A DNA stretch of 64,000 bases, taken from Pseudomonas sp. WJP1. Lineage in GTDB: Bacteria > Pseudomonadota > Gammaproteobacteria > Pseudomonadales > Pseudomonadaceae. The stretch lies in assembly GCF_028471945.1 (NCBI RefSeq), contig NZ_CP110128.1, positions 5,134,501-5,198,500 on the forward strand, in the 5' to 3' direction. The notes beneath the pieces are model-generated. The model was not told the origin of the DNA. It saw only the letters and a program-made list of their open reading frames with translations, and ran no database searches. This document shows positions 16,580 to 61,350 of this stretch, one piece after another. The translations under genes and the position numbers were made by a program. Each line of letters starts with the position of its first letter. Positions within the stretch are counted from its first letter, which is position 1.

Positions 16580-19057
16580 ATGCGATCTCTTCCACGCCGT
16601 ACCCCTCTCGCGCTGGCCGTACAGCGCCCGTCATTGCACAAGACGCTGTTGACCAGCGTCCTGCTGACCGCCACGTTGCTGGGGAGCACGATGGCCAACG
16701 CAGCACCTGTAAAAGTGAGTATTGCCGTGCAGCCGCTGTCCAGCGCGCTGACCCAACTGGGCATGCAAACCAACCTGCAAATCCTCTACAGCCCGGATCA
16801 GGTGGCCGGCATCAAGTCCCGCGCCGTGTCCGGCTCGCTGGAGCCTTCCGCGGCCCTGGCCGAGATGCTCAAGGGCACCGGCATTTCGTTCCAGATCAAC
16901 GGCAACAGCGTGACGCTGGTGTCGGGTGGCTCATCGAGCCTGCAACTGGGCGCCACGACCATTTCCGGCCAGGCCCTGGGCCTGACCACCGAAGGCACCG
17001 ACTCCTACACCACGGGTGCGACCACCACCGCCACCAAGTTGCCGCTGACCATTCGCGAAACGCCGCAGTCGGTTACCGTGGTGACTCGCCAGCAGATGGA
17101 CGACCGCGGTGTGACGAGCGTCGCCGATGCGCTGCGCAACACCCCGGGTATCACCACCCAGAAGTACGACAGTGACCGTACCGAGTTTTCCGCCCGAGGC
17201 TTTGCCATCACCAACTTTCAGTACGATGGCGTCAACATTCCCTACGACGGCGTGTACGGTGAAAACCCCAACAACAGCGATGACGCTGCCAGCCTCGACC
17301 ACATCGAAGTCATCAAGGGCGCGACCGGCCTGATGACTGGCGCCGGCGACCCGGCAGCCACGGTCAACCTGATCCGCAAGAAACCAACCAAGGAATTCAA
17401 GGCCTCGGTCAGCGCCACTGCCGGTTACTGGGACAACTACCGTACCGAAGGCGATATCTCCGGCTCGCTCAACGATAGCGGCAGCGTGCGCGGCCGTTTC
17501 GTCGGTGCCTTGCAGGACAAGGATTCCTACATCGACCACTACAGCCAGAAGAAAGACCTGTACTACGGCATCCTCGAAGCCGACCTGACCGACGATACGC
17601 TGCTGACCCTTGGCGTCGACAAGTCCAGCGCCACTCCACGCGGCAGCTCCTGGACCGGTAACTCGCCGTACTACAGCGACGGCGGTCGTACCGACTTCTC
17701 TCGCGGTTTCAACCCGGGCGCCGACTGGAGTCGTCGTGACTTCGACAGCACCACCTACTTCGCGTCCCTGGAACAAGCCCTGGCCAACGACTGGAAACTC
17801 AAGGCCAGCTTCGACCAGAAAACCACCGACCACGATACCCAACTGGCCTCGGCGAGCGGCGGTTACCCGGACCGCAACACCGGCGAAGGCATGTTCTTCT
17901 ACTGGGGGCGCTGGGAAGGCCATCGCGTGCAGAACACCGCTGACGTGAACGTCTCCGGCCCTTTCACCCTGGGCGGTCGCGAGCATGAACTGGTGGCGGG
18001 TTTCATGACCTCCCATTCCCGTCAGACCGGTGCGACCTACGACACCAGCGAGTTCGGGCTGGTCCCGGGCGACATTTTCGACTGGACAGGCCATATCGCT
18101 AAACCGGACTTCCCGAAAAACGGCAAATACGAGCGCACCCAGAGCCAGAACGGCGCTTACCTGGCCACGCGCCTGCGCCCGACCGATGACCTGTCGTTCA
18201 TCCTTGGCGGCCGCGTAAGTACCTACAAGTACAACGAGGATTACACCTACTACCCGGGCGCCGGCCTGTCCGATACCCACGCCAGCTACAAGGAACACGG
18301 CGTGGTTACGCCTTACGCCGGCGTGGTCTATGACTTGGACGATACCTATTCGGTCTACGCCAGCTACACCAGCATCTACCAGCCACAGATCTACAAGGAT
18401 GCGAGCGGCAAGACCCTGGAACCGGTTGAAGGCGACAGCTACGAGACCGGCATCAAGGCGGCCTACTTCGAAGGCAAGCTGAACGCCAGCCTGGCCTTGT
18501 TCCAGATCGAGCAAGACAACGTCGCCCAGTACGTCACCACCAACACCGACAACGGCCAGGACGTCTATGAGCCCATCTCCGGTGCCAAGACCAAGGGTGT
18601 GGAACTGGAACTCGCCGGTGAACTGGCCGAAGGCTGGAACCTGTCTGCCGGCTACACCTACGCCCGTACCCGCGACCAGGACCATCAACGCATCTTCGGT
18701 TTCCCACTGGCCACCAGCAAACCGGAACACGTAGTGCGCACCTTCACCACTTACCGCCTGCCCGGCGCGCTGGACCAGTTCACCGTCGGTGGCGGTGTCA
18801 GCTGGCAGAGCGCGTTTTACGGCCAGAGCTACAGCCCTAACGTAGGCGGCGGCGAAGGCGGCAGCACCATGCTCAAGCAAGGCGGCTACACCCTCGTCGA
18901 CCTGATGACCCGTTACCAGTACGACGACCACCTGAGCTTCACCGTCAACGCCTACAACGTCTTCGACAAGCGCTACCTGACCGGCCTTGGCAACTTCGGC
19001 ACCACCTTCTACGGCGAACCGCGCAACATGCAGATCACCGCGAAGTACGACTTCTGA
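16580..19057 (+). CDS. fpvA: FpvA, TonB-dependent ferripyoverdine receptor with signalling domain
   Basis: An 825-residue outer-membrane receptor. After a long signal peptide ending at ANA, residues about 45-120 form a secretin/TonB short N-terminal (STN) domain (VSIAVQPLSSALTQLG to ISFQINGNSVTLV), found in receptors that signal to an anti-sigma factor. A plug domain follows (TIRETPQSVTVVTRQQMDD, IEVIKGATGLMTGAGDPAATVNLIRKKP) and then a 22-strand-type barrel ending in the aromatic ITAKYDF. It imports ferripyoverdine with TonB. The STN domain predicts an FpvR-like partner, yet none is encoded beside fpvI. An intrinsic terminator follows the stop. Confidence 0.95.
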   Translation: MRSLPRRTPLALAVQRPSLHKTLLTSVLLTATLLGSTMANAAPVKVSIAVQPLSSALTQLGMQTNLQILYSPDQVAGIKSRAVSGSLEPSAALAEMLKGTGISFQINGNSVTLVSGGSSSLQLGATTISGQALGLTTEGTDSYTTGATTTATKLPLTIRETPQSVTVVTRQQMDDRGVTSVADALRNTPGITTQKYDSDRTEFSARGFAITNFQYDGVNIPYDGVYGENPNNSDDAASLDHIEVIKGATGLMTGAGDPAATVNLIRKKPTKEFKASVSATAGYWDNYRTEGDISGSLNDSGSVRGRFVGALQDKDSYIDHYSQKKDLYYGILEADLTDDTLLTLGVDKSSATPRGSSWTGNSPYYSDGGRTDFSRGFNPGADWSRRDFDSTTYFASLEQALANDWKLKASFDQKTTDHDTQLASASGGYPDRNTGEGMFFYWGRWEGHRVQNTADVNVSGPFTLGGREHELVAGFMTSHSRQTGATYDTSEFGLVPGDIFDWTGHIAKPDFPKNGKYERTQSQNGAYLATRLRPTDDLSFILGGRVSTYKYNEDYTYYPGAGLSDTHASYKEHGVVTPYAGVVYDLDDTYSVYASYTSIYQPQIYKDASGKTLEPVEGDSYETGIKAAYFEGKLNASLALFQIEQDNVAQYVTTNTDNGQDVYEPISGAKTKGVELELAGELAEGWNLSAGYTYARTRDQDHQRIFGFPLATSKPEHVVRTFTTYRLPGALDQFTVGGGVSWQSAFYGQSYSPNVGGGEGGSTMLKQGGYTLVDLMTRYQYDDHLSFTVNAYNVFDKRYLTGLGNFGTTFYGEPRNMQITAKYDF

Positions 19058-19596: not shown

Positions 19597-19629
19597 ATTT
19601 GCAAACTCCCTGAATGGAGCCGCAACCAC

Positions 19630-19800
19630 CTTGCTACTAAACGAAGGGTGGCGGCTGTGCGCAGGTTAGTAGACCGGGGGAGTTAGCATTAACCGGCGCG
19701 CCGAAGCGCCCTGCGCACAGCCACCATCAAGTGCAGGCATATGAATACCTGACTGAAGGGAGCGCTATGCACCTAACTAACAACCCTCGGGCTACTAAAC
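19630..19800 (-). promoter_or_regulatory. Structured leader upstream of the DUF6124-like gene
   Basis: A 16-bp stem is formed by 19647-19665 and 19710-19725, with three unpaired bases, and encloses a small inner hairpin at 19695-19710 (GGCGC and GCGCC arms). The whole is flanked by two exact copies of GCTACTAAAC at 19633-19642 and 19791-19800. It lies 35-205 bp upstream of the start codon, so it would form in the 5' untranslated RNA. I infer a cis-acting RNA or a mobile palindrome. Confidence 0.5.
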
Positions 19801-20186
19801 CCGATCACTGACAATCAGTGACCCGATCCAAGTTACCGAGCGCCCCCAAGTCGCACAAGCCGGTGGATTCTGGAGTAACTGTAGGCAACGACGCAAGGTG
19901 CTGTAGCTTTCTGGAAGTAACCTGTCTGGCAATTAAACGCGCTACAAATTGCTCGAAAAAGCGCCGCAAATAGAGGCCCAACAACCCTCGACCCGAACGC
20001 TTGAATGCCGTCCGATTCCACCGCGCAACACCCCTCTCCAAACCCGGCACCATTCCTACAGATCCGGCGCACAACCATCTCGGATGCTTCCTACGTTTGT
20101 AATGGAAGAATCCTATTTCGACCCTTGTCGGTTTCTTGAAAGCTATCGAGCTGCTGTTCCAATAATTCAAATACTCAAGGACCGAT
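19801..20186. other. Non-coding accessory stretch
   Basis: About 390 bp of mixed base composition without a credible gene. Short open frames exist on both strands but lack ribosome binding sites and familiar motifs. It leads into the decayed effector-like fragment. Confidence 0.5.
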
Positions 20187-24023: not shown

Positions 24024-35776
<11,753 letters not shown>

Positions 35777-35777
<1 letters not shown>

Positions 35778-54413: not shown

Positions 54414-55094
54414 ATGACCTTGCAGATCGGTTTTCTGTTGTTTCCACAGGTGCAGCAACTCGACCTTACCGGCCCTTACGACGTTCTGGCGTCGCTGCCG
54501 GATGTGAAGGTGCATCTGATCTGGAAGGACCTGATGCCCATCACCGCCAGCACCGGGCTGGTGCTCAAGCCGACCGTGACTTTCGACGACTGCCCGGCGC
54601 TGGATGTGATTTGCGTACCCGGTGGCAGCGGGGTCGGGCCGTTGATGGAGGATGAGTCAACGCTGGCGTTCATCAAGGCCCAGGCCGCCAATGCGCGCTA
54701 TGTGACGTCGGTGTGCACCGGTGCGCTGGTGCTCGGTGCGGCGGGCCTGCTCAAGGGTAAACGCGCCACCACTCACTGGGCATATCACGAATTGCTGGCG
54801 CCGCTGGGGGCGATTGCGGTGGCGGATCGGGTGGTGCGCGACGGCAATCTGCTGACCGGTGGCGGGATTACTGCAGGCATTGATTTTGCCCTGACCCTGG
54901 CCGCTGAGCTGTTCGATCAGGACACTGCTGAGTTGGTGCAACTGCAACTGGAATACGCGCCTGCGCCGCCATTCCAGGCCGGTAGCCCGAAAACGGCGCC
55001 CGCCCGCGTGCTGGAGGAAGCTCGCCAACGTGCCGCCAGTTCATTGAAACTGCGCGCGCAAATCACCGAGCGGGCGGCGACGAAACTCGGCTGA
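54414..55094 (+). CDS. inhA: Isonitrile hydratase-like DJ-1/PfpI protein
   Basis: A 226-residue cytoplasmic protein matching Pseudomonas isonitrile hydratase (228 residues), which hydrates isonitriles to N-formamides. The catalytic Cys101 and Thr102 are in SVCTGALVLGAAG, and the conserved Asp17 in LDLTGP is present. An AGGAGAAA ribosome binding site precedes the ATG. It shares the PfpI fold with the neighbouring regulator, which is a common gene pair. The natural isonitrile source in this organism is unknown. A terminator-like hairpin that also ends the rsmX-like RNA follows about 60 bp downstream. Confidence 0.85.
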   Translation: MTLQIGFLLFPQVQQLDLTGPYDVLASLPDVKVHLIWKDLMPITASTGLVLKPTVTFDDCPALDVICVPGGSGVGPLMEDESTLAFIKAQAANARYVTSVCTGALVLGAAGLLKGKRATTHWAYHELLAPLGAIAVADRVVRDGNLLTGGGITAGIDFALTLAAELFDQDTAELVQLQLEYAPAPPFQAGSPKTAPARVLEEARQRAASSLKLRAQITERAATKLG

Positions 55095-55155
55095 CAAATG
55101 AATGACTGGCTGCGCGAACCCGTGTTCAAGCAGCCAGGTGTTTTCTGACGCCCAC

Positions 55156-55272
55156 AAAAAAACCCGCCGAAGCGGGTTCTTCCAAGACCATTACAACTCC
55201 CTGTCGTCAGCATTCCATGCAAATGGTCGATCATCCATGATCCTGAGAGCACTCCCTGTGTCTCAGTGGATG
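55156..55272 (-). ncRNA. rsmX: RsmX/RsmY-type regulatory RNA with repeated GGA hairpins
   Basis: On the minus strand about 117 bases contain six GGA motifs, several in hairpin loops: CTGAG...CAC-AGGGA-GTG...CTCAG, GATCA-TGGA-TGATC and GCAT-GGA-ATGC, then ACAGGGAG and TTGGAAG. It ends in an intrinsic terminator, AACCCGC-TTCG-GCGGGTT followed by seven T in all. A TATTCT -10-like box lies just upstream. These are the hallmarks of Gac-controlled RNAs that sequester RsmA/RsmE. The length fits RsmX of P. fluorescens. The 5' end is estimated. Confidence 0.75.
55157..55180 (-). terminator. Intrinsic terminator of the rsmX-like RNA
   Basis: Stem AACCCGC with complement GCGGGTT and a T-rich tail on the minus strand; on the plus strand it may also end the inhA transcript. 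Confidence 0.85.
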
Positions 55273-55326
55273 GGGCCAGAATACGCATCGGATCCAATAT
55301 GTAACAGAGGACATAGTTGTAACCGC

Positions 55327-55344
55327 GTGTAAGATATTCGCTAT
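55327..55344 (-). promoter_or_regulatory. GacA-type upstream activating half-palindrome
   Basis: TATAGCGAATATCTTACA on the minus strand keeps the right half CTTACA of the known TGTAAG-N6-CTTACA element exactly; the left half is poor (TATAGC). It is about 65 bp upstream of the estimated RNA start, the usual place. Confidence 0.55.
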
Positions 55345-55393
55345 AGCTGCCCTTCGCAAACGCTCTGGGATGCGTTTAAGCAGGGATCTGCCT

Positions 55394-55882
55394 TCACTCA
55401 TTCCCCCGCTCGCGGGCCTTGGCGTTTTCGACGAGAAATTGTTCCAGTCGGCTCAATTGCTCTTCCCAGCCACGGCTGTCCATGTAATACGCTTCCTTCT
55501 GGCGTATGTCGGGAATGTGAGCGAAGCCTGACTCGGAAACCTTGAGCAACGTGCCGTTTTCGTAATCCTGCAGTTCGAACTTGACCAGCGTGGTGGGCTC
55601 CTGGGAGTAGTCGATTTTGGGGTTCACCGCGTAGGGGTGCCAGCGAAAGGAAAACAGCTGTTGCGGCTCGACCCGCTCGACCAGCACATTCCACAACACA
55701 TGTTCATAACCGGGATACGTAACCTGCCCCTGCGTCCACTCGCCGGCGATGAACCGCCGGCCTTCAAGCGCAACGCCGAACCACTGACCGAACGCCTCGG
55801 CATCCACCAAAGCGCGCCACACATGGGCGCGGGGCGACTTGAGCATGATTTTGCGTTCAAAACTGTTGGGTACTGGTTTCAT
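55394..55882 (-). CDS. SRPBCC (AHSA1-like) domain protein
   Basis: A 162-residue protein of the START-like/AHSA1 fold. The opening ERKIMLKSPRAHVWRALVDAEAFGQWFG and the later pattern VNPKIDYSQEPTTLVKFELQDYENGTLLKVSESGF are typical of this group, ending in RGWEEQLSRLEQFL. Such proteins bind lipids or stabilise other proteins, and they often sit next to an ArsR-type regulator; none is found here. The ribosome binding site is AGGAGGTG. Function unknown. It is divergent from the LprI-domain gene. Confidence 0.85.
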   Translation of the reverse strand: MKPVPNSFERKIMLKSPRAHVWRALVDAEAFGQWFGVALEGRRFIAGEWTQGQVTYPGYEHVLWNVLVERVEPQQLFSFRWHPYAVNPKIDYSQEPTTLVKFELQDYENGTLLKVSESGFAHIPDIRQKEAYYMDSRGWEEQLSRLEQFLVENAKARERGNE

Positions 55883-56536: not shown

Positions 56537-57655
56537 TTACCGCACAAAAATCTGCGCAGTCGTAATCGCCATATCCCCACCCGGCAGCTTGATCTTGCCC
56601 ACCTGCTTCAAGCTGTCGGCATCAAAGATCGCCACATCGTTGAAGGTGCCGGCCAGGTAGATCTTGCTGCCGTCCTTGTTGAAGGAAATGCAGTAGTAGG
56701 AGTGATCAAGCGTCGCCGCCTGGAGCATTTTCTTCTCCTTGATGTCGTACTTGGCCAGGCGGTTGAGCACGCCAAACATCAGGTTCGGGTCTTTGGGCGA
56801 GCGCATGCCGCTGAAGTAGATCTCCGTCAGGGGGCCGAAATCGGTGGTTTCGGTCTTGCCGGTCTTCAGGTCGACACTGAACAGGCCGTACAGATATTCC
56901 GCGGTGGCCGGGTCCTGCTTCTTGTCCTTGAATTTCGCCGCGGTGTAGAGCAGCGAGAAATCATGCCGGTAGGTCTGCTGGTTCCACACGTAGAGCACGT
57001 CCGGCGCGCTGTAGTTTGGGCGTTTCCAGTGACGGCTGGGGATCAGCACGTCGAACTTGCCGGTTTGCACATTGACCTTGTAGATATCCGCCCCGGCCAC
57101 GTACAGCGTGCCGTCGTCACCGCTCTGCATGATGGTCAGCTGGCGAGGCGCCGGAAAACTGCGCACCGGCTTGGCGTCCATGCCGGCGTCGGTCTTGTAC
57201 ACGTCTAACCGTGGCTGCTGCACTTCGTAGCGATCGTTCATCATCAGCGTTGGATTGGCGACGGTGTACAGCTCCTTGCCGTCATGGCTGACGGTGAAGG
57301 CGAACATGGACTTGGCTTTCTCTCCCGGTTTTTGCGTGATGCTGGCGTGGAACACCTGCTTGCAGCTGTCCAGCTCGACGCCGTAGACATCCGCGTAGTG
57401 GTTGTTCAGCACGTAGGCGGTCTTGCGGTCCGGCGACAATTGCACGCTGCCAGGACCGAAGGCGTCGGGCATCTTGCAGGTCTTGTACAAGGTGTCGGTG
57501 GCCAGGTCGATCACGTGCAGGTTGTTCGGGTAATTGGTGGTCAACATGTATTCGTGACCGTCTTGCAGCGCGGTGTTTTCATCGGCCAGAACAGCGAGCG
57601 AAAACGTACTCAGGACGGCGAACGCGGCCAGGCCGCAGGCTTTGATGCTGTGCAT
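56537..57655 (-). CDS. qhpB: Quinohemoprotein amine dehydrogenase beta subunit
   Basis: A 372-residue periplasmic protein with a signal peptide (LAAFAVLSTFSLAVLA-DEN) and a seven-bladed YVTN-type propeller (HVIDLATDTLYKTCKMPDAFGPG, SPDRKTAYVLNNHYADVYG and similar repeats). It is the middle subunit of the amine dehydrogenase and lies over the quinone-bearing gamma chain. An AAGGA site lies before the ATG. It is the last gene of the minus-strand operon qhpA-qhpD-qhpC-qhpB, beginning 24 bp after qhpC. Confidence 0.93.
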   Translation of the reverse strand: MHSIKACGLAAFAVLSTFSLAVLADENTALQDGHEYMLTTNYPNNLHVIDLATDTLYKTCKMPDAFGPGSVQLSPDRKTAYVLNNHYADVYGVELDSCKQVFHASITQKPGEKAKSMFAFTVSHDGKELYTVANPTLMMNDRYEVQQPRLDVYKTDAGMDAKPVRSFPAPRQLTIMQSGDDGTLYVAGADIYKVNVQTGKFDVLIPSRHWKRPNYSAPDVLYVWNQQTYRHDFSLLYTAAKFKDKKQDPATAEYLYGLFSVDLKTGKTETTDFGPLTEIYFSGMRSPKDPNLMFGVLNRLAKYDIKEKKMLQAATLDHSYYCISFNKDGSKIYLAGTFNDVAIFDADSLKQVGKIKLPGGDMAITTAQIFVR

Positions 57656-57679
57656 GCTGGAATCCTTCTTGTTATCTGA

Positions 57680-58003
57680 TCACTTGTCTTTCGGGAAGAC
57701 AGTGCCGAGGTTTCGCCAGTTGTCGTTGGACGCCTGGGCATCCTTGTTCCAGTCCGGGTAGGTGCTCATCATGTCCGGCACCTGGGCCGGCCACCAGCAC
57801 GGATCGGAGCAGCCATACAGGTCAGCTTCCATCGGCTGGCACAGCGACGACACACCGCCAAACGCATCGATTTCCCAGCCCGGGTCGGTGGTCGAGGCAC
57901 AGCCCGCCACGGAGCTCATGGCGACCACTTCTTCAATGCGGTTTTCATCCGCGGCCTGATCCAGCTTCAACGCTTTGTTATTGATTGCCTTGAGATGTTT
58001 CAT
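57680..58003 (-). CDS. qhpC: Quinohemoprotein amine dehydrogenase gamma subunit precursor
   Basis: A 107-residue peptide that carries the catalytic cofactor cysteine tryptophylquinone. Numbering from the known 28-residue leader, all crosslink residues of the P. putida subunit are kept: Cys35-Glu44, Cys55-Asp61 and Cys69-Asp77 (thioether bridges), with Cys65 and Trp71 forming the quinone pair in [14 protein letters not shown]. The leader ([20 protein letters not shown]...EEVVA) is recognised by the radical SAM enzyme QhpD and later removed by a protease. Translation starts one base after the qhpD stop. The gene is one of the cleanest identifications in the window. Confidence 0.95.
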
Positions 58004-58004
58004 A

Positions 58005-59435
58005 TCAGTGAGCCTTGCGCGGAGTGATGTAGCTGCTGATGAACGCAGGGTTATTGGCCATGATCCGGGTGTAGACCTCGATGCCGAAGTCGACCCAGTC
58101 ACGCATCAATTCGCAGTAGTGATAGGTCGGGTGCGTCGGGTCGCCGTAGCGGGCGTAGCTCTCGTGGTAGCAGCCGCCGGAGCACAGGTTGCGGATCTGG
58201 CAGTCTTCGCAGCCGGTGTTGGTGCGGTCCAGGCGCTGGGACAGGAAGTCGTTCAACTCCACCTGTTTCACGCCGCTGTGCACGTTGCCGAAGGTCGGCA
58301 GGCTCGAACCGGTGAAGCGGTGGCAAAGGTTCAGCTCACCCTTGTGATCCACCGCCAGCATCTTCAGGCCCGCGCCGCATGGCAGGGCTTTCTTGTGGCC
58401 TTCGTGGATGTCGGTGATCAGCTGGTGCAGGTTGGAGAAACCGATGTTGCGGTGCTCCAAAGCGGCTTCCAGATAACGCCGACCCAGGGCCTTCATGTTG
58501 GCGAACACCTGCACCAGTTCATCGCTGGTGAGGTTGAAGCTGCTGATGTCGCCGGAGGTCACCGGGGCAAAGCCGACTTCGGCGAAACCCAGTTCATTGA
58601 ACAGGTGATCCCAGATGGTTTCGACGTCGGTGACGCCGGTGGTCAGGGTAACCCGCGCGCCGACCGGACGGCTGTTGTAGCGCGACAGCAGCATCTCGGC
58701 CTTGCGCCGCACCACGTCGTAGGTGCCCTGCCCGCCCACGGTGATGCGGTTGCGGTCGTGCACGGTTTTCGGCCCGTCGATGCTCACCGACAAGCCAAAG
58801 CGGTGGGCGTTGAGGTAGTCCACGGTCTCTTCGGTGAGCAGCGTGGCGTTGGTGGTCATGACGAACTCGACGAATTTGCCGGCCTCGCGAAAACGCTTCT
58901 CGCAGTAGTCGACCATGTACTCGATCAGCTTGCGGTTGCTCAGCGGTTCGCCGCCGAAGAACACCACGGTGAAACGCTCTTCGTCCGGCGACTCGCGCAG
59001 CAGCATTTCCACCGAAGCAATCGCCGTTTCGACATCCATCTTCTTGCCCGCCGACGGCTTGTCGAGGTCTTCCTTGTAGCAATACGTGCAGCTCAGGTTG
59101 CAGCCGGTGTTGACGTTGAGCACCACGGTGTTGATCGCCGTGCGCTCGACCCGCTTGGTGGCGATGTCCGGGGTCAGCGGCGAGCCGTCGCTGACCAGTT
59201 CCAGGGCCATCAGCTCGCGCAGGGTCTCGGTGATTTCCTCGCCGTTGAAACGCGCGGCGAGGCGCTGGATCAGGTCGTCCGACGAACAGCCCGGGCCGCG
59301 CAAGGTATCGATGATGGTGCCCGTCAGTTCATCGCTGGCGAACAGCGAACTGCTGGGGATGTGAAACAGCATGCGGTCGGCATCGACCTGCACTTCGTGC
59401 AGGTTGCGTTCGACCAGATTCAAGATAGCGCCCAT
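58005..59435 (-). CDS. qhpD: Radical SAM/SPASM enzyme QhpD that installs thioether crosslinks
   Basis: A 476-residue enzyme that forms the Cys-Asp/Glu thioether bridges in QhpC using S-adenosylmethionine. The radical SAM cysteines are Cys112, Cys116 and Cys119 in [16 protein letters not shown], and the C-terminal SPASM domain is rich in cysteines ([38 protein letters not shown]) for auxiliary clusters. The ATG at 59433-59435 has a near-perfect AGGAGGT site six bases upstream and gives the family length; an in-frame TTG six bases earlier is less likely. It sits between qhpA and qhpC. Confidence 0.95.
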
Positions 59436-59517
59436 TGCCAACCTCCTGTGCAGGCCCCGGTTTCAGGGGCTTGCGATCATTCCGAAAAAGTGTCTGAAGC
59501 TCTGGCGTTCAGTTCAC

Positions 59518-61098
59518 TCATGGAATGGGTGGATTGTTCCAGCGTTGCACGGTCACGATCATGTGGCCTTCGCCGGTCAGGGATTTCCCTGCGTCGTCGA
59601 CGGCGGCGATCACCTTGAGGTTGCCGGCATTGTTGGTGGACATTTTGCGCGCCGGGTTCGGCCCGGCATCGCCCGGGGTGAACACGCCCGCGTCGGCCTG
59701 CATGGTGCCGGCGAACTTGACGTCTTCATCTTCCTTGGCACGGTCATCGAAGGCCTCGACCTTCCACTGCGCCGGGAACACGCCGATGCGATACGGCTTG
59801 CCGTCAGCGCCCTTGCCCCAGGCTTCGGCATCGAAACGGCCCTGGACTTTCGGTGTCGAACCACCGCCCTCGCCGATCCGCGCCACCGAGAATTCCGGCA
59901 CGACCTTGACCTGGTCGATCTTGCTGTAGACCGACAGGCTCGGGCCTTTTAGCGTGCCGACGGTGACCGCGTGCAAGCCCGGCTGGGCATTGGCGGCGGC
60001 CTTGATTTTGACCTTGATTCGCTCCGGGCTCTGCTCGACGACTTCGAGCACTTCCACGCCTTTGCCGAAGTTCGGCTTGCCGCTCAGGCCGCTGCCGATC
60101 AGGGTGACTTCGCTTTCGCTGCCGGCCTTCACATAACCCGGCTGCACCGCCAGCAAGCGCTGGGAACCCTGCTTGGCGGCGACGAAGTCCAGACCGCGTT
60201 CATCGTGCTCGGCCTCGAACATCCGGCCCTGCATCGCGTTGCCTTGGGCGGCGAACACCTGGCGCATGGTCACGCCGTCGATGCTGACATTGCCGCGCCA
60301 TTCGTAGCCGGTATAGAGAATCGCGCTGCCGTCGCCGTTGAACGGCGTGCCATCGGCGTATTGGCCTTTGACGCTGACCTTGAAGGTGTCGCTGCCGTCG
60401 GCGCTTACGCTCATGACGCCGGCCAGTTCGCCTTTGCCCGGCAAGTGACCGCTGAAGCTCCAGTCACCCACCAGCGCCTCGCTTTTGGGCGCCGTGCCAA
60501 GCCATTTTTTCCAGGCCGGGTTGTCCAGCGGGTAGCGCTTGGCCAACAGCGGCACCATCTCTTTGCGGGCCAGATCGAACCAGTCGCGGTCGCGGGACAG
60601 TGCCTGGTATTCCAGGGACGGCCATTGGCCGAGGTGGAAGTTCACCAGACGCTCCCACTCCTGCGCCGGACGCCGTTGCAGGGCGACCCGCGCACCGGAG
60701 TGGCAGCGGCCGCACATCTGGCTGTGCTGGTCGTCGAACTGCTCGACAGTGTTGAGCCGGCGCTCCAGCGCATAACGCACGCCATCGGTTTCGCTCGGCG
60801 CCAGGCCCTGGGTGTCGGCCAGGTATTTAACCAGCGTGCGGCGATCCTCATCGCTGATCTGCAGGCCGTGCATGGTCTGCATCCGCGCGATGCTCATCAG
60901 CCAGCCTTCCGGCGTCTTGCGCTGGTGGCTGATGCGGCTCAGGGCGTTATCAGCTTCGGGGGTATGACAGCCCTGACAGGTTTCCTTGAGGATGGTCTGG
61001 GCGTCGCGGGCTGCCAGGCTGTAAGGCGAATGCAGCGCCACACAAGCGGCCACGGCCAGCAGACTGGCACTCAGGCCTGATCGGAGTTTTCTCTTCAT
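59518..61098 (-). CDS. qhpA: Quinohemoprotein amine dehydrogenase alpha (diheme) subunit
   Basis: A 526-residue exported protein with a signal peptide (residues about 1-30, ending at SLAA). Two c-type heme motifs are visible, CQGCH at residues 41-45 and CGRCH at 129-133, so electrons from the quinone site can pass to an external cytochrome or azurin. The remainder forms the Ig-like and beta domains of the alpha subunit. The first gene of the minus-strand operon; the ATG at 61096-61098 gives the signal peptide, whereas a GTG further upstream only adds six residues. It is divergent from the aldehyde dehydrogenase gene. Confidence 0.95.
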   Translation of the reverse strand: MKRKLRSGLSASLLAVAACVALHSPYSLAARDAQTILKETCQGCHTPEADNALSRISHQRKTPEGWLMSIARMQTMHGLQISDEDRRTLVKYLADTQGLAPSETDGVRYALERRLNTVEQFDDQHSQMCGRCHSGARVALQRRPAQEWERLVNFHLGQWPSLEYQALSRDRDWFDLARKEMVPLLAKRYPLDNPAWKKWLGTAPKSEALVGDWSFSGHLPGKGELAGVMSVSADGSDTFKVSVKGQYADGTPFNGDGSAILYTGYEWRGNVSIDGVTMRQVFAAQGNAMQGRMFEAEHDERGLDFVAAKQGSQRLLAVQPGYVKAGSESEVTLIGSGLSGKPNFGKGVEVLEVVEQSPERIKVKIKAAANAQPGLHAVTVGTLKGPSLSVYSKIDQVKVVPEFSVARIGEGGGSTPKVQGRFDAEAWGKGADGKPYRIGVFPAQWKVEAFDDRAKEDEDVKFAGTMQADAGVFTPGDAGPNPARKMSTNNAGNLKVIAAVDDAGKSLTGEGHMIVTVQRWNNPPIP

Positions 61099-61350
61099 CA
61101 ACGTCGAACCTCGCACGGTGCTTTCTTATTTTTGTGGCTTATCGTTTTTTGGGTTTCTGCCGCCGGCGGCAAGCCGCTGACGGAGGCAGGAGAAACGTCT
61201 GCGATGAGCAATACACGGAGCGTGCCAGCTTACGAATAGTGTTTTTTATCAATCGTTTAGGTGAAATACAGGGTGATTGGCGACTGCTAAACCTGACGTC
61301 CCGCGTCTAATATCGCGACATCTGTTGCACTCTGAGACAAGCATAGATCT

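Follow-up and report, generated by a model that had tools for sequence, protein, structure and literature searches.

In pseudomonad relatives of the strain studied here, RsmX, RsmY and RsmZ are described as GacA-activated RNAs that sequester RsmA and RsmE (excerpts of PMC2375449 and PMC7366521). GacA-dependent transcription of rsmX has been shown for such relatives (excerpts of PMC7911923, PMC13187841 and PMC3684763), and in a gacA mutant of P. chlororaphis 30-84 rsmX stood at 0.14 of the wild type (excerpt of PMC3684763). The RsmX family, as represented by P. protegens CHA0 and Pf-5, P. brassicacearum and P. syringae, is marked by GGA loops, a terminator and an rsmX-type GacA box, all of which recur at the locus reported below. 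RsmY (RF00195) and RsmZ/PrrB (RF00166) are likewise GGA-rich titrating RNAs under GacA.

In the present study, we analysed a window of 64,000 nt from the genome of Pseudomonas sp. WJP1, in which an initial annotation had read a probable GacA-controlled, RsmX-like RNA next to inhA and had proposed an Rfam covariance search and a secondary-structure prediction as checks. The rsmX covariance model (RF02144, gathering score 56), reportedly the subject of Moll et al. 2010, matched the minus strand over its full length (model positions 1-114 of 114) at 104.8 bits, with an E value of 9e-19 for the window and no non-standard pair marked (Table 1). The RsmY model reached 26.1 bits at the same place, under its cut-off of 57, and the RsmZ model gave no match there at E 0.001; across the whole window, a search at Rfam gathering scores returned rsmX and a C4 RNA only. 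The RsmX-like identity is borne out by this match, by covariation across 23 homologues and by the upstream element, which decided the call more than the number of GGA motifs did, and the locus is almost certainly rsmX, the gene of a GacA-activated RNA that sequesters RsmA/RsmE. It is an ordinary member of an already known RNA family, differing from known RsmX by small sequence changes and by the letters of its -10 element, and it leaves the knowledge of that family unchanged; what it does illustrate is that a real small RNA can be picked out by a reader of raw sequence.

Table 1. Features of the rsmX locus and its flanks (window positions; GGA motifs numbered from the 5' end of the RNA)
Feature	Position	Strand	Remarks
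RsmX small RNA	55157..55271	-	115 nt as modelled, terminator included; RF02144 full length
GacA upstream activating sequence, rsmX type, TATAGCGAATATCTTACA	55328..55345	-	18 bp; alignment of 24 loci
Probable -10 element TATTCT	55278..55283	-	Alignment of 24 upstream regions
GGA 1	55253..55255	-	First base 55255; hairpin loop (Rfam consensus, minimum-energy fold, centroid fold)
GGA 2	55241..55243	-	First base 55243; spans helix junction, paired in Rfam consensus
GGA 3	55234..55236	-	First base 55236; hairpin loop in all three folds; invariant in 23-sequence alignment
GGA 4	55214..55216	-	First base 55216; hairpin loop (Rfam consensus, minimum-energy fold); internal loop in centroid fold
GGA 5	55198..55200	-	First base 55200; hairpin loop (Rfam consensus, minimum-energy fold); internal loop in centroid fold
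GGA 6	55181..55183	-	First base 55183; single-stranded linker before terminator in Rfam consensus
Intrinsic terminator hairpin, then U-run	55160..55179	-	CCCGC-UUCG-GCGGG; Rfam structure line
inhA-like isonitrile hydratase gene (DJ-1/PfpI, Pfam)	54414..55094	+	Convergent with rsmX, outside the RNA
AHSA1-domain (SRPBCC-type) gene	55394..55882	-	Upstream of rsmX, outside the RNA

Among 57 genomes (WJP1 and 56 relatives), searched with stricter filters that lose some weak matches, rsmX scored above the cut-off in 24, all of the same genus; it is not universal in that genus, since 12 of the 36 genomes belonging to it gave none above the cut-off. Seven database records, all Pseudomonas, contain the same 25 nt of the RNA without a mismatch, and no match turned up on plasmids in a near-mode search or on phages in a distant-mode search. 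The comparative set consisted of the best rsmX locus from each of the 24 genomes, and 23 of these loci entered the covariation alignment; L025 was dropped, as it is identical to L024 over the first 60 nt. On the 23 sequences, 92.7% of the cells of the Rfam structure pair; sliding the structure by 1-3 columns lowers this to 31-45%, a comparison that leans towards the tested structure because that structure was derived from the match of the WJP1 sequence to the model. Changes on both sides were found in 12 of the 36 pairs (shuffle mean 4.9), and not one of 500 shuffles, which ignore the relatedness of the sequences, reached 12 or came as high on any of five measures. The helices are not equally firm: helix 6, the terminator, has 100% of its cells paired across the 23 sequences, pair 55-62 fails in 10 of 23 sequences, and pair 67-82 in 9 of 19. 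We also observed rsmX copies with starts about 0.2-0.5 kb apart in three genomes, G005 (L031), G010 (L035) and G018 (L022), resembling the tandem rsmX-1/rsmX-2 of P. brassicacearum.

All six GGA motifs counted in the initial annotation are present in the RNA, a number equal to that reported for both RsmX-1 and RsmX-2 of P. brassicacearum (excerpt of PMC7911923). Of all 115-nt windows in the 64 kb, taken on either strand, 0.6% contain at least six; so do 272 of the 1000 sequences obtained by dinucleotide shuffling of the RNA, and therefore the GGA count alone, not being unusual for the composition, is weak evidence. Fold stability is stronger evidence, the minimum free energy being -43.1 where shuffles had a mean of -31.1 (sd 3.4) and a single one of 1000 dinucleotide shuffles came as low. 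The proposal that at least three of the motifs lie in hairpin loops agrees with the Rfam consensus and the predicted minimum-energy fold, each of which places four there (GGA 1, 3, 4 and 5); the centroid fold retains two, GGA 1 and 3, and in the minimum-energy fold GGA 6 pairs with the 5' end of the RNA. The intrinsic terminator had likewise been read correctly, for the Rfam alignment contains its hairpin followed by U's; a simple terminator scan of rsmX returned 0, probably because A/U pairs beside the stem take up the U-run.

Upstream of the RNA, the CTTACA that had been taken for a half-site is present at 55333-55328, and it is more than that: it ends an 18-bp element located 74 nt before the RNA, which is close to, and of the same type as, the rsmX box given for P. 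brassicacearum as TATAGCGAAACGCTTACA (excerpt of PMC7911923). When the best match to the P. brassicacearum box within 130 nt upstream was scored (maximum 18), the box was found 73-75 nt before the RNA in all 24 rsmX loci, at exactly 74 nt in 21 of them, with scores of 13-17; in mononucleotide-shuffled upstream regions, the number of loci (out of 24) scoring 13 or more averaged 0.075. The pattern TATAGCGAANNNCTTACA, allowing up to two mismatches, occurs once in the window, at rsmX, where 0.01 occurrences are expected. With up to one mismatch, TATRGCGAANNNCTTACA occurs once in the 7.0-Mb genome, again at rsmX, but the reversed pattern, used as a control, is likewise found a single time, so that this uniqueness across the genome is not itself strong evidence. 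At the -10 place, TAATCT stands in 16 of the 24 loci and is named as the conserved element in an excerpt of PMC3684763; TATTCT stands in two, WJP1 and a close relative (L028), and the remaining six read otherwise. A generic promoter scan found none at rsmX.

The left half of the WJP1 rsmX box is not TGTAAG, and the box agrees with the palindromic GacA box at 11 of the 14 positions that the latter specifies; across the loci this half is the non-palindromic TATRGCGAA in 17 of 24. The strain's own RsmY carries a TGTAAG-type palindrome, TGTAAGCATTCTCTTACA, 75 nt upstream, and the best box match of its RsmZ, TGTAAGTCTTCGCTTACT, begins with TGTAAG and lies 189 nt upstream, in agreement with an rsmZ promoter longer than the rsmX and rsmY promoters (excerpt of PMC3684763). 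Setting the non-palindromic left half of rsmX against the TGTAAG of the other two boxes brings up the idea that rsmX is switched by GacA plus a second, rsmX-specific contact or factor, which we regard as rather unlikely; if true, the level of phosphorylated GacA that switches each RNA on would differ among rsmX, RsmY and RsmZ.

The -10 element also bears on whether the locus might be a decayed or silent relic, its fold kept and the RNA no longer transcribed or bound. Such a relic would suit the TATTCT, the single base inserted in hairpin 1 relative to the RF02144 model and a score below that of many relatives, which reach up to 117 bits, but TATTCT is shared with L028, the match is full-length with GGA loops and terminator retained, the box keeps its usual distance, and this is the sole rsmX copy above the cut-off in the genome, though RsmY and RsmZ remain; we consider a relic very improbable.

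A survey of the WJP1 genome filled in the Gac-Rsm parts list. Above their cut-offs, rsmX, RsmY (126.6 bits) and RsmZ (138.8 bits) are each present once; CsrA-family genes number three, and a single regulator of the GacA/UvrY family reaches 316.2 bits (cut-off 280). The single rsmX compares with two in tandem in P. brassicacearum and up to five (rsmX1-5) in P. syringae (excerpts of PMC7911923). Seventeen weaker rsmX matches (E up to 1), at 19.2-34.8 bits, were rejected as all lying under 56, and one of them is the RsmY of the genome, at 6471990-6472109; at this same loose E limit, 7 of 14 control genomes also gave rsmX matches, none of them over the cut-off. A scan at Rfam gathering scores of nine loci (the weak rsmX matches L002 and L004-L010, together with L052) found no Rsm RNA among them and returned three tRNAs and one gabT. 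Near RsmY, a weak RsmZ match (28.2 bits, cut-off 44) was rejected because its letters look like coding sequence.

At the level of DNA, four secondary matches to rsmX were rejected because each is confined to 25-29 nt at the end that holds the terminator, and the single one inspected sits just past an apparent gene end. These two observations would suit a locus that is nothing but a terminator or an element in the 3' UTR of an adjacent gene, its likeness to rsmX being accidental; however, here all 114 model positions are matched at 104.8 bits where the next score in the genome is 34.8, the RNA runs opposite to inhA with an upstream element of its own, and the covariation speaks against such an element, which leaves this explanation with hardly any probability and an RsmX gene as the reading to be kept.

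The statement in the initial annotation that the stretch has no coding potential holds broadly, though not to the letter. A mechanically called 126-aa ORF starting with TTG (54917-55297, minus strand) passes through rsmX and continues on the strand opposite the 3' end of inhA. It is probably spurious: across the 24 loci the RNA is 107-120 nt long, the stops differ in both number and frame, and all three sense frames are closed in four, including the close relative L028 (none is closed in L032).

As for what the RNA does, transcription, GacA control, RsmA/RsmE binding and derepression of targets are inferred for WJP1 by analogy with the relatives. Phosphorylated GacA would act on the 18-bp element and turn rsmX transcription on, the resulting RNA of about 115 nt would form hairpins that carry GGA as well as a terminator, and by capturing RsmA/RsmE it would free target mRNAs for translation. 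A GacA-controlled RNA diverged to some function other than this titration is extremely unlikely. In its favour, rsmX alone did not rescue a triple mutant of P. protegens Pf-5 (excerpt of PMC13187841) and constitutive rsmX did not rescue phenazines in P. chlororaphis 30-84 (excerpt of PMC3684763); against it, the GGA hairpin loops are retained in WJP1, the lesser role of RsmX in Pf-5 was read by its authors as titration of only one repressor (excerpt of PMC13187841), and overexpression of rsmX-2 restored a P. brassicacearum gacA mutant (excerpt of PMC7911923).

The neighbours of rsmX recur in relatives. The adjoining gene is indeed InhA-like, as had been supposed, its product matching the isonitrile hydratase InhA of PDB 3non at E 2.9e-113; no paper naming rsmX and inhA together with Pseudomonas turned up in the literature searched. 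Relatives of the AHSA1-domain gene lie near rsmX in 12 of the 24 genome loci (WJP1 included) and in 6 of 7 pattern loci. The corresponding counts for inhA, at an identity of at least 78%, are 4 of 24 and 3 of 7; all these counts are lower bounds, since the flanks taken for most genome loci extend 1.5 kb to either side, and two of the loci, L027 and L060, are apparently the same contig.

Elsewhere in the window, the C4 antisense RNA (RF01695), of phage type, was found at 19644-19731 on the minus strand with 71.2 bits (gathering score 45), and positions 19607-19897 share 75.8% identity with Pseudomonas phage DVM-2008 (EU982300). It is situated past a long ORF (16580-19057) that reads like a TonB-dependent receptor and before an ORF of 3917 aa (24024-35777) that reads like an NRPS. 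A quinohemoprotein amine dehydrogenase cluster occupies 56537-61116 on the minus strand, with an alpha subunit, a radical-SAM maturase, and gamma and beta subunits, each above its NCBIfam cut-off.
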